The translations under genes and the position numbers were made by a program. Source: a cyanobacterium PCC 7702 (GTDB lineage: Bacteria > Cyanobacteriota > Cyanobacteriia > Cyanobacteriales > Nostocaceae). Taken from it: 64,000 bases of DNA. Shown one piece after another: positions 2,150-6,419 of the stretch (within the stretch, counting starts at the first letter, position 1; the number at the start of each line of letters is the position of its first letter). The notes below the pieces were generated by a model. The model was not told where the DNA came from. It ran no database searches and saw nothing but the letters and a program-made list of their open reading frames with translations. The stretch lies in assembly GCA_000332255.1 (NCBI GenBank), contig KB235926.1:2918153-2982152 (forward strand), in the 5' to 3' direction.

Positions 2150-2719
2150 TTGTATATCGGAGATAGCAAACTATTGAATGTATATGCAAGGCAAACAGCC
2201 CATCTTCAAGCCACAGAAAACAAAGCAAACCCAGAGAAAGGGATAGACAGTGCTGTTGCTCTTGGTAGCAATCTCGGTGATTCTCGCGCTCTTTTAGAAG
2301 CAGCAGTAGAAGCCCTGGCTCAGACACCAGGAATTATTTTGAAAGCCAAATCTAGCTGGTACAAAACTAAAGCTGTAGGACCACCCCAACCAGATTATTT
2401 GAATGGTTGTGTGATACTTCAAGTTAACATGGTACCACAGTTATTACTAGAAACTTTGCTAGAAATTGAAAAAAAATTTGGACGCGTACGCCAAAAACGG
2501 TGGGAAGCACGGTTGTTAGATTTGGATTTGTTGTTATATGATGACTTAATTGTGAATACCCCCAACCTTCAAATTCCTCATCCTCGAATGCGGGAGCGAG
2601 CTTTTGTATTGGTTCCTCTAGCAGAAATAGCTCCAGATTGGGTCGAACCAATTTCCAAACGCAGTATTAAACAGTTGGTGAAAGAGGTAGACTGTTGTGA
2701 GGTAAGTCTTTATGGCTGA
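2150..2719 (+). CDS. folK: 2-amino-4-hydroxy-6-hydroxymethyldihydropteridine pyrophosphokinase (HPPK)
   Basis: Transfers pyrophosphate from ATP to 6-hydroxymethyl-dihydropterin, the step before dihydropteroate synthase in folate synthesis; cytoplasmic. Visible signatures are ALGSNLGD near the start, the catalytic loop ending in RWEARLLDLDLLLYDD that binds Mg-ATP, and IPHPRMRERAFVLVPLAEIAP. The reading frame opens with TTG at 2150, and another in-frame TTG follows near 2174. No in-frame ATG precedes the ALGSN motif and there is no strong ribosome site, so the start is uncertain by up to about 30 residues. It is followed almost at once by the NUDIX gene in the same direction, probably co-transcribed. 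It lies near two more pterin-related genes in the first 10 kb. Confidence 0.92.
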   Translation: MYIGDSKLLNVYARQTAHLQATENKANPEKGIDSAVALGSNLGDSRALLEAAVEALAQTPGIILKAKSSWYKTKAVGPPQPDYLNGCVILQVNMVPQLLLETLLEIEKKFGRVRQKRWEARLLDLDLLLYDDLIVNTPNLQIPHPRMRERAFVLVPLAEIAPDWVEPISKRSIKQLVKEVDCCEVSLYG

Positions 2720-2797
2720 TATTTGATTTTGCCCGACCTTAAGCACAGAACAATAGCTCAAATTGTTTTGTGTTTGTTTTCACCAAAAAACTTGATT

Positions 2798-3364
2798 ATG
2801 CCATTAGGTAGAGAATTACCCCAACTGCTACGACAACGCTTATATTATAAAGGACGCAAGTTTGATTTTGAAGTGAATCGCTTGCGCTTGCCCAATCAGG
2901 CTGAAGGAGACTGGGAGTGTATTCGTCACCCGGGAGGTGCTTTAGCAGTACCCATAACATTAGAGGGGAAACTGATACTCATACGTCAGTACCGTTTTTC
3001 GGTTGGGGGACGAGTGCTGGAATTTCCCGCCGGAACCGTGGAAGCAAATGAAGATCCTTTGCAAACCATTCAACGCGAAATTGAGGAAGAAACTGGTTAC
3101 CGTGCTCACAAATGGAAAAAACTGGGAGAATTGATTGTTGCTCCTGGTTATTCTGATGAAATTATTCATGCTTACTTAGCACAAGATCTAGAAAAGCTAC
3201 AAAGTCCTCCTGGAAAAGAAGAAGACGAGGATATCGAACCAGTTTTATTCTCTCTAGAAGAATTAGAAAATGCTATTTCGCAAGGAGAGGTAGTAGATAG
3301 CAAATCTATTTCCAGTTTTTTTCTAGCTCGTCAATACATTATTAGTGCCACACAAACTTCATAA
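2798..3364 (+). CDS. NUDIX hydrolase, ADP-ribose pyrophosphatase type
   Basis: Probably cleaves ADP-ribose or a related nucleoside diphosphate-sugar to AMP plus a sugar phosphate, a housekeeping clean-up role in the cytoplasm. The NUDIX box is complete: the glycine of FPAGTVEANEDP, then REIEEETGY, which carries the metal-binding glutamates. The preceding sequence RQYRFSVGGRVLEFPAG is typical of the ADP-ribose branch. The frame is open from a TTG at 2723, but ATG at 2798 gives a 188-residue protein that begins where family members usually begin, so it is preferred. It lies about 80 bp after folK on the same strand. The substrate is inferred from the family, not visible in the sequence. Confidence 0.85.
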   Translation: MPLGRELPQLLRQRLYYKGRKFDFEVNRLRLPNQAEGDWECIRHPGGALAVPITLEGKLILIRQYRFSVGGRVLEFPAGTVEANEDPLQTIQREIEEETGYRAHKWKKLGELIVAPGYSDEIIHAYLAQDLEKLQSPPGKEEDEDIEPVLFSLEELENAISQGEVVDSKSISSFFLARQYIISATQTS

Positions 3365-3454
3365 ATAAATAGAAAAAGTAGAAAAAGACTGCTTCTTTGG
3401 AAGATTGTTATTTGCATCGGTCTATTTAACAGTGCGAGTGTGCTATACTGAACC

Positions 3455-3740
3455 ACAGAGCCAAACCATAAAAGGTAGCTAACTCTCCTTTTTTGAGACT
3501 AAGACCGCTCAGGCAACAAGGAGGTGATGCCCATGGTAGATAGTAGTAAACCCATGGGTCATCAGGTTGCTGAATATCGGCTGTGTGCCGGAGCTGTTCT
3601 CTAACGGCAGACTGCAAGTCTAGTTAAGGCTAGGTGACTCGAAGCAGAAAAAGTTTGGAGTTCCTTCCGGCAGTCAGATAGCAATCTGAAGACCCGCTAG
3701 ACCGCTCTTACCTAGATAACTTAATCTAAAGTAAGAGCGG
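3455..3740 (+). ncRNA. Candidate structured non-coding RNA
   Basis: No convincing protein is encoded here, yet the stretch is rich in base-paired arms. A -10-like TATACT sits at 3444-3449. A long imperfect hairpin pairs CAGGCAAC...GATGCCCATGG (about 3510-3535) with CCCATGGGTCATC...GTTGCTG (3551-3573). A small hairpin TCAGAT-AGCA-ATCTGA follows (about 3674-3689). The element ends in a perfect 10-bp stem at 3702-3740. The segment AGACCGCTC occurs twice (3502-3510 and 3700-3708), so the final GAGCGG could pair with either copy. I looked for RNase P, tmRNA, SRP, 6S and intron hallmarks and found no clear match. A cyanobacterial 6S-like or regulatory RNA, or a long leader of the dehydratase gene, remain possible. 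Confidence 0.45.
3702..3740 (+). terminator. Strong hairpin, possible terminator of the candidate RNA
   Basis: CCGCTCTTAC at 3702-3711 pairs perfectly with GTAAGAGCGG at 3731-3740. The loop itself contains TAGAT/ATCTA. The following tract (ATAGTTATTT) is only moderately T-rich, so termination efficiency is uncertain and the stem may instead be part of the RNA fold. Confidence 0.5.
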
Positions 3741-3952
3741 ATAGTTATTTGTGAGACCTTGACTAAAAGGGAACTAAATAGGAAAAATAGCGTCAGCTTG
3801 CTGAGTGAGCGTTCAAAAGCTCGCCGCTACAGAACAGGAATTATTTTTGGTAGAAATTTTCAAAAGCTAAAATTCTTACTTTAGGCTCTGGAGGTAGATG
3901 GCTTTTCCTTATCTCAACGCATAGCTGTTTTGGAAGTAAGGATGTACTGATT

Positions 3953-4404: not shown

Positions 4405-4610
4405 GACAAACTATAAAGATGTGTTTTTGCATAAGTTAATTAGATAAAACTTTTACCCCAACTTAATCAATTGTTAGCTTAGCAAAAACTAAAATTAGCT
4501 TTAGAAGGGCTAATATGCCTCGTCCACAGGTTTCAACAAGAAGTCGGATTTTCAACAATAGTTGCAGCAAATCTTATTTACCCATGAAGACAAGGTGTGA
4601 GGAGAAGAGA

Positions 4611-6419
4611 ATGAGGAGATCTAGTATCTTGTGGAAATCTTTGGTGGTCAGTCCAGCAATTTTAGGAGCAACGTTGTTGGTATCAGCAACGGCGATCGCG
4701 GCTCCAAACAGTACCACCTCGGAAACAGTCCCCACAAAATGGTCATCTGCTGAGAAAAATACTTCTGCACAGACTCAATTTACAGCTGTGTCGGAGATTG
4801 CCAAGCAGCCAAAGATTGTGGCTGATGCAGCGCAGTCCCAGCAGACTGATATCCTGCAACAAGTAAGCCAATACAGCAATTCAGGAAAAGGAAATTCTCA
4901 GTCCCAAGTTACCTCGGTTTCACAATTTTCTGACGTTCAGCCGACGGATTGGGCATTTCAAGCATTGCAGTCCTTAGTTGAACGTTATGGCTGTATAGCT
5001 GGTTATCCAAACGGTACCTTCCGTGGTAACCGAGCTTTGACTCGTTATGAATTTGCAGCAGGTTTAAATGCTTGTTTGGATCGAGTCAATGAATTGATAG
5101 CAACAGCAACAGCTGACTTGGTGACAAAAGAAGACTTGGCAACTTTACAACGGTTGCAAGAAGAATTTTCCGCAGAACTTGCTACCCTGCGTGGTCGGGT
5201 AGATGCGTTAGAAGCACGGACTGCAGAGCTGGAAGCACACCAATTCTCAACCACCACCAAACTGTTTGGGGAAGCAATCTTTGCTCTGAGCGATGCTTTT
5301 GGCGACACTGCTGGGAAGAGAAATAATACCGTATTCCAAGACAGGATACGTTTAGATTTACAAACCAGTTTCACGGGCAGAGATGTTTTACACACCCGTT
5401 TATCGACTGGTAATGCCAATAGATTTGATATAGGTACAACAACAGTAGGTGGCGTACCTTCGGGAGAAGGTCTGCAAACCTTTAACATTAGTGGTAATGC
5501 ATCTAACAACAATGGTGTTAATCTAGACTGGTTGTCATATTATTTCCCAGTAGGTGATGCGGCTCGGGTTTATATTGCAGCTACCGGCGGCATTTGGAGT
5601 GACGTTGCTTCTACCGTTAACCCGTACTTTGAAGATTATGACGGTGGTAACGGTGCTTTGTCTACTTTTGCTTCTGAAAACCCCATTTTCCGGATTGGTG
5701 GTGGTGCTGGTGCGGCGATAAACTTTGGCTTTGGCAACAAGCGTACCTTCTTGCTACCTAGCTCAGTGACGATTGGTTACCTGGGGTCTGAACCAAACAA
5801 TCCTGGTTTAGGTTCGGGTATCTTCAACGGTAACTACGCAGCTTTAGGACAGTTAAACTTTAATTTAGGCGATCGCATTGCATTAGCTGCGACCTATGTC
5901 CACGGCTATCACGGTGCAGGTAGTGCTTTGTTTGATGCAGGCGGGACCCTAGGTGCAAATGTTCCCGTAGTAGGTACCTCGCAAGCTAATGCTTTGGGTT
6001 TAAACACTACAACAGGCGATCGCAGTCCATCTTCCAGTAACTCCTACGGCTTATCAGCTGCCTTTAGACCAAGTGACAAATTATCTATCAGTGGCTTTGT
6101 TTCCTACCATAATGTGAAAGGCTTTGGTTCTAACGATGATTATGAAGCTTGGAGTTACGGAGCAGGAGTTGCCTTCCCCGACCTAGGAAAGAAAGGTAAT
6201 GTACTGGGTATATTTGGTGGTGCTGAGCCTTATGCTTTGAACAGAATTCCAGGTGTTAAGGATGGTAGTATACCTTGGCACATTGAGGGTTTCTATAAAT
6301 ATCGTGTCACCGATAATATTTCCATCACTCCTGGAGTAATTTACTTGCTCAATCCCGGTCAAAATAGCAATAACGATGATGTAATTATTGGTACGCTCAG
6401 AACAACCTTTACTTTCTAG
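4611..6419 (+). CDS. SLH-domain outer-membrane porin (OprB family, cyanobacterial iron-uptake porin type)
   Basis: Major outer-membrane porin allowing passage of small solutes, possibly inorganic ions. After an N-terminal hydrophobic signal ending in ATAIAA there is a Ser/Gln-rich linker. Then comes one SLH domain (from about VSQFSDVQPTDWAFQAL to LTRYEFAAGLNACLDRV) that anchors to peptidoglycan. A coiled-coil stretch (EELAT/LEAR pattern) leads into a long Gly/Asn-rich beta-barrel ending in the phenylalanine typical of outer-membrane proteins. The frame is open from 4515, but ATG 4611 has GGAG six bases upstream and directly precedes a good signal peptide, so that start is used (602 residues). 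An excellent terminator follows, so it is a one-gene unit. The iron role is taken from family naming and not shown here. Confidence 0.9.
   Translation: MRRSSILWKSLVVSPAILGATLLVSATAIAAPNSTTSETVPTKWSSAEKNTSAQTQFTAVSEIAKQPKIVADAAQSQQTDILQQVSQYSNSGKGNSQSQVTSVSQFSDVQPTDWAFQALQSLVERYGCIAGYPNGTFRGNRALTRYEFAAGLNACLDRVNELIATATADLVTKEDLATLQRLQEEFSAELATLRGRVDALEARTAELEAHQFSTTTKLFGEAIFALSDAFGDTAGKRNNTVFQDRIRLDLQTSFTGRDVLHTRLSTGNANRFDIGTTTVGGVPSGEGLQTFNISGNASNNNGVNLDWLSYYFPVGDAARVYIAATGGIWSDVASTVNPYFEDYDGGNGALSTFASENPIFRIGGGAGAAINFGFGNKRTFLLPSSVTIGYLGSEPNNPGLGSGIFNGNYAALGQLNFNLGDRIALAATYVHGYHGAGSALFDAGGTLGANVPVVGTSQANALGLNTTTGDRSPSSSNSYGLSAAFRPSDKLSISGFVSYHNVKGFGSNDDYEAWSYGAGVAFPDLGKKGNVLGIFGGAEPYALNRIPGVKDGSIPWHIEGFYKYRVTDNISITPGVIYLLNPGQNSNNDDVIIGTLRTTFTF

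Follow-up and report, generated by a model that had tools for sequence, protein, structure and literature searches.

A conserved mini-ORF pairs with the 3' half of a Sye_sRNA1-type cyanobacterial RNA, suggesting a possibly ribosome-operated molecule

Introduction

Sye_sRNA1 is an abundant sRNA of Synechococcus elongatus UTEX 2973, ranking as the top-abundance sRNA under two conditions, measuring about 200 nt on a blot and reported, together with its homologues, among the most abundant transcripts in several cyanobacteria (PMC6091082). Homologues, confirmed in Anabaena 7120, S. elongatus 7942 and Synechocystis 6803 and 6714, conserve the structure and lie mostly downstream of psbD or cobB, and the level of the RNA falls transiently in high light, while in darkness it rises by sequencing and drops on the blot (PMC6091082). 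The accessible text of that paper calls the molecule an sRNA, states no function for it and nowhere mentions an ORF.

Another cyanobacterial structured RNA with a short ORF, Yfr6 (Downstream-peptide RNA, RF01704), is described as conserved in the 5' UTR ahead of its ORF, and was likened to RNAIII by its authors. RNAIII of Staphylococcus aureus and the SgrS-type RNAs are dual-function RNAs, which are likewise structured and carry a very short ORF, a resemblance that does not imply homology.

Here we analyze an element in a 64,000-nucleotide stretch of the cyanobacterium PCC 7702 (the window). In contrast to the description of Sye_sRNA1, it carries a mini-ORF; unlike in Yfr6, this ORF itself forms the structure. 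Because this RNA belongs to an already published family, the element in itself offers little that is new, and what we have not found described is the ORF, the rod in its detail and the deep distribution; searches of a largely open-access literature, read mostly at the level of listings, yielded no account of an ORF in an RNA of this type.

Results

The window element is a copy of Sye_sRNA1

The published start sites of Sye_sRNA1 (1,559,116) and tmRNA (2,274,728), both on the plus strand, lie 715,612 nt apart (PMC6091082). In an S. elongatus-type genome of 2,696,255 bp (G089), the element starts at 2,611,701 and the tmRNA at 631,076, again both on the plus strand and 715,630 nt apart going forward round the circle. 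A single covariance model covers the window copy (9.8e-56) and the G089 copy (3.1e-29), and among 117 element loci the upstream genes include clusters of 33 psbD and 7 cobB proteins. On this synteny, and on a map position agreeing to within 18 nt, we take it as established that the window element is the PCC 7702 copy of Sye_sRNA1, although it differs from the described homologues in having a NUDIX gene upstream.

Judged by its -10 box and terminator, the window RNA is a free-standing, terminated transcript with a predicted length of about 290 nt and a putative start near 3456 (Table 1). The -10-like box and the perfect 10-bp terminal stem of the original prediction were both recovered. A simple pattern search recovered a TGTG(C/T)TAT-like box upstream of 73 of 116 homologues and not of the other 43. 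The element folds at -103.3 kcal/mol, better than all 200 shuffles (mean -79.8, sd 5.0; z -4.7). The terminal stem is followed by TTATTT, and a stem plus T-tract occurs after 120 of 130 homologues, compared with 12 of 130 shuffled stretches, identifying it as an intrinsic terminator. Combined with the homologues themselves, the covariation described below and the homologue transcripts already reported (PMC6091082), this supports a structured, independently transcribed RNA, as had been proposed.

Table 1. Features of the element in the window
Feature	Position	Strand	Basis
Extended -10 promoter box TGTGCTATACT, hexamer TATACT at 3444-3449	3439-3449	+	sequence
Conserved 5' motif GACCGCTCAGG, consensus ACCGYTTAGG	3503-3513	+	alignments
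Shine-Dalgarno run AAGGAGGTGAT, full 11 nt, complementary to the 16S 3' end	3518-3528	+	genome scan, 16S 3' end
Mini-ORF, 23 codons plus TAA: MVDSSKPMGHQVAEYRLCAGAVL	3533-3604	+	frame conserved in homologues
Rod 5' strand, ORF codons 8-23	3556-3601	+	covariation, folding
Apical part of rod, variable	3605-3657	+	alignments
Rod 3' strand, complementary to ORF	3658-3695	+	covariation, folding
Intrinsic terminator, stem 3702-3711/3731-3740 and T-rich tail	3702-3750	+	terminator count in homologues

The element had been matched to no known RNA family, and this held in our searches: no Rfam family reached its gathering threshold and none matched over the element by E-value, the four matches of E 1.6-4.1 all falling upstream of it. 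ARAGORN detected no tRNA or tmRNA gene in the window, and the element had no match in phages and plasmids. The suggestion of a 6S-like RNA was abandoned: 6S is also a rod-like bacterial RNA, but RF00013 does not match over the element, and the same genome holds its own 6S at a separate locus (G000:C1:2244467-2244650). RF01704 likewise gave no match to the element, making Yfr6 a similar idea in a different RNA.

The family spans the Cyanobacteriia

Using window positions 3440-3760 as a BLAST query, we found the element in 57 of 60 relatives, at one site per genome and in five cases split into two pieces. A covariance model built from these 57 sequences (R1) matched 293 of 388 Cyanobacteriia genomes, in 138 of 160 genera, and 95 of 292 genomes in a phylum sample. 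The sole R1 match outside the class (L108, E 1.5e-4) was rejected as a true homologue, as it looks more like the beginning of an ordinary gene preceded by a strong Shine-Dalgarno sequence. Deep members were found in four families (f41, f32, f39 and f53) whose placing is presumably deep. The named scan gave, among the matches listed, at least 117 stretches; the 80 records listed were all cyanobacterial and include Thermosynechococcus, Acaryochloris, Leptolyngbya, Fischerella and Nostoc.

One further family, f29, was matched by R1 weakly at best (L283, E 0.015). A BLAST search with the L283 element recovered 72 of 121 genomes of this family (54 of the 76 of good quality), and a consensus rod with the base GGGUC and GACCC is common to 30 of the recovered loci, with few compensatory changes inside the family. 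At these 30 loci the ORF opens with ATG 17 times and with GTG 13 times; five of them have psbD upstream and two have OprB downstream. This work thus extends the family to deep branches and to f29, and provides a covariance model for a family absent from Rfam.

Two observations concern unusual copies. One genome (G111, L292) carries, 5 kb from its first match, a second and diverged one (C1:2023847-2024006, E 9.1e-15), possibly a tandem copy. Among the small genomes of family f50, two weak matches (L281 and L282) keep the 5' motif, the Shine-Dalgarno run, the start and the DSSK codons, the remaining rod being unrecognisable or much altered.

The mini-ORF pairs with the 3' half in a covarying rod

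Applying RNAalifold to a sequence-only alignment of the 57 sequences (A1), we obtained a rod that joins ORF codons 8-23 to the 3' half of the RNA by base pairing, with changes on both sides at 21 of 40 pairs; it superseded the helix set assumed initially. Of the 35 rod pairs taken alone, 21 change on both sides, with 97.6% of cells paired and 115 compensatory cells compared to 27.1 in shuffles, and none of 500 shuffles reached any of five rod measures. One pair occurs as CG, AU, GC, UA and GU. Versions of the rod slid along the alignment pair at most 52.8% of cells, a control biased towards the rod, which was itself obtained from this alignment. A second alignment (A2) has 96 rows, including L108, and was built on the model, which biases it towards the structure; in it 95.8% of cells are paired and 32 of 40 pairs change on both sides. 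In a noisy all-against-all covariation analysis of 70 sequences, three of the best six pairs were rod pairs, several other top pairs being non-helical and in a gap-rich stretch.

Several local structures compete with the rod or neighbour it. A long hairpin had been predicted; a local hairpin is indeed present (about 3513-3577), but it competes with the longer rod, which reaches the 3' half. Computed for the window sequence, the partition function gives the rod base GGGUC/GACCC pair probabilities of 0.93-0.98, as opposed to 0.07-0.18 for an alternative with the start region. A start-region hairpin, which could close the ribosome landing site, is present in nearly all 57 sequences, with no both-sides changes among them; a version with shifting registers was discarded, since beyond CCC/GGG it was just slightly better than shuffled codons, and across 68 distinct regions the extension had a mean z of -0.28, with 68% below zero (Wilcoxon p 0.004, uncorrected for relatedness). 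An alternation between this hairpin and the rod is a possible other two-state arrangement. Within the ORF, a CCGGC/GCCGG hairpin may be a passing alternative, as it shares bases with the rod and is 96.8% paired, with both-side changes at one pair. The 5' motif possibly forms a 2-bp CC/GG mini-hairpin (pairs 5-13 and 6-12 of A2, 94.1% paired).

The original prediction centred on a switch in which GAGCGG at 3735-3740 would pair with either of two copies of AGACCGCTC at the ends of the element. Both copies are present in the window. Among 130 homologues, however, the window's is the one that has the 5' copy, while 69 carry the 3' copy; two competing partners are therefore not a conserved feature, and the switch is not supported. 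Moreover, relatives with another terminator (L058 and L061) still keep the 5' ACCG..AGG motif. The observation behind the original prediction as a whole was confirmed in part, and its interpretation is partly supported.

Start codon and frame are conserved, and selection on the peptide is undetected

The very strong covariation of the rod would suit a purely noncoding structured RNA, in which the rod is the working part, as a scaffold or a base-pairing sRNA, and the frame and Shine-Dalgarno-like run either arise as by-products of a conserved RNA sequence or bind a protein; the published name is that of an sRNA (PMC6091082). The region had also been described as having no supported gene, and here the homologues speak otherwise. 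We examined 130 homologues (116 from the first sets and 14 deep ones, leaving out L108, the weak L281-L286, duplicate loci, named loci and the f29 loci). Every one of the 130 has a start codon behind a GGAG(G) run, at a distance of 13 nt from the first base of that run in 126 cases; 129 of these codons are ATG and one (L145) is GTG. The ORF has 23 codons in 105 homologues, 24 in 18 and 17 in six, where it stops at codon 18, and is frameshifted in one (L056), such that 129 of 130 hold an in-frame ORF of 17-24 codons. At L104-L106 and L145 the frame can also be read from an ATG further upstream; the start used in these counts gives 17, 17, 17 and 23 codons, respectively. The genome of the sole frameshifted ORF is 86% complete, and the frameshift may represent decay or a sequencing error. 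In two S. elongatus-type loci (L097 and L327) codon 18 is TGA, after which the frame continues as AGTVL and a stop, so that a single recent change may account for the shortened ORF.

In the window genome, AAGGAGGTGAT with an ATG 2-6 nt downstream was found at this site only. In 111 of the 130 homologues, start and anchor are 44 or 47 nt apart; of the other 19, seven lack the anchor by pattern and twelve scored other distances, some inspected by eye. Among the 101 homologues with a recognised motif, six different lengths of the 5' spacer occur (27-31 and 33 nt). Where the usual stop is lost (L036, L109 and L136), a replacement stop occurs one codon later. These re-made stops, the retention of start codon and frame in 129 of 130, and the full-length Shine-Dalgarno run at translation-type spacing all argue against the noncoding explanation, which the lack of detected amino-acid selection described next in turn favours, and which we consider unlikely.

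The same conservation of frame, start and Shine-Dalgarno run, together with size changes that remain in frame (e.g. L055, L132, L142 and L271), would suit an mRNA for a functional micropeptide whose translation is tuned by the rod. However, among 100 distinct ORFs, 23 of 88 single-step codon variants were synonymous, compared with 19.7 expected, which reveals no selection on amino acids, and the third-position excess was weak (p 0.05 for codons 16-23; p 0.14 for codons 2-23). The peptide is cut to 17 residues in some lineages, differs in its N-terminal half in f41 and matched no protein family. No in-frame stops were seen across 25 effective sequences where 4.65 were expected, a result that is no more than supportive because the tested ORFs had already been chosen as open. 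Overall, the start and frame look selected and the amino acids do not, from which we infer that the main product is unlikely to be the peptide; a functional micropeptide appears distinctly improbable.

A model for ribosome operation

The element contains a conserved translatable ORF within a structured RNA, one of the traits of dual-function RNAs. We tentatively propose, at a probability of about 0.45, that it is a ribosome-operated RNA, possibly with a dual function. According to this model, a 30S subunit would land on the leader, which is exposed, and the ribosome would have to unzip the rod as it translates. The RNA would thereby alternate between the closed rod and an open form that carries the ribosome and exposes its 3' strand, a strand that may then have a function of its own. 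The proposal draws on the class-wide conservation, the rod covariation, the start and frame conserved across 129 of 130 homologues, the sole full Shine-Dalgarno/ATG combination, the start-to-anchor distance that is kept while the 5' spacer varies, and the abundance of the published transcript. Against it stand the undetected amino-acid selection, the six ORFs stopping at codon 18, the single frameshift and the weak support for closure of the start region. With a conserved mini-ORF and a covarying rod between ORF and tail, the function of this abundant RNA becomes directly testable.

A more specific version, which taken as a whole we regard as speculative and rather improbable, would make the RNA a translation-capacity device. 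Here a very abundant RNA, dating to the common ancestor of living cyanobacteria, would capture 30S subunits with the strongest Shine-Dalgarno sequence of the genome, and ribosomes reading the mini-ORF would unzip the rod, whose other strand is complementary to it, such that ribosome supply would set the shape and activity of the RNA.

The gene neighbourhood varies

The genes flanking the element in the window were correctly predicted as encoding a NUDIX protein and a pterin-4a-carbinolamine dehydratase. In the window (2150-3361) and four relatives (L002, L003, L005 and L006), folK and the NUDIX gene lie upstream, where most relatives have psbD, which is a local rearrangement. The pterin dehydratase (a cluster of 55 proteins) and an SLH-OprB porin (66 proteins) are frequent neighbours, in most cases on the same strand and downstream, and could suggest a cis-acting attenuator or riboswitch for one of them, as in the attenuator envisaged originally, but this is highly improbable because the next gene, hundreds of bases away, changes between lineages, a terminator intervenes after 120 of 130 homologues, the AGACCGCTC repeat required for the switch is not conserved, and no single regulated gene consistently has the element in its leader. 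Attenuation through serine codons, tied to a nearby cysK, would be a further conceivable arrangement.

A side observation concerns the porin itself. The Anabaena OprB-like porin Alr4550 has been named as a target of the sRNA Yfr1 (PMC6974561). In the window (4594-4613), GGTGTGAGGAG lies right before an in-frame ATG at 4611 of the SLH-OprB porin gene. We presume that this stretch fits the Yfr1 target type, and the true start of the porin is probably at 4611 rather than at 4515.
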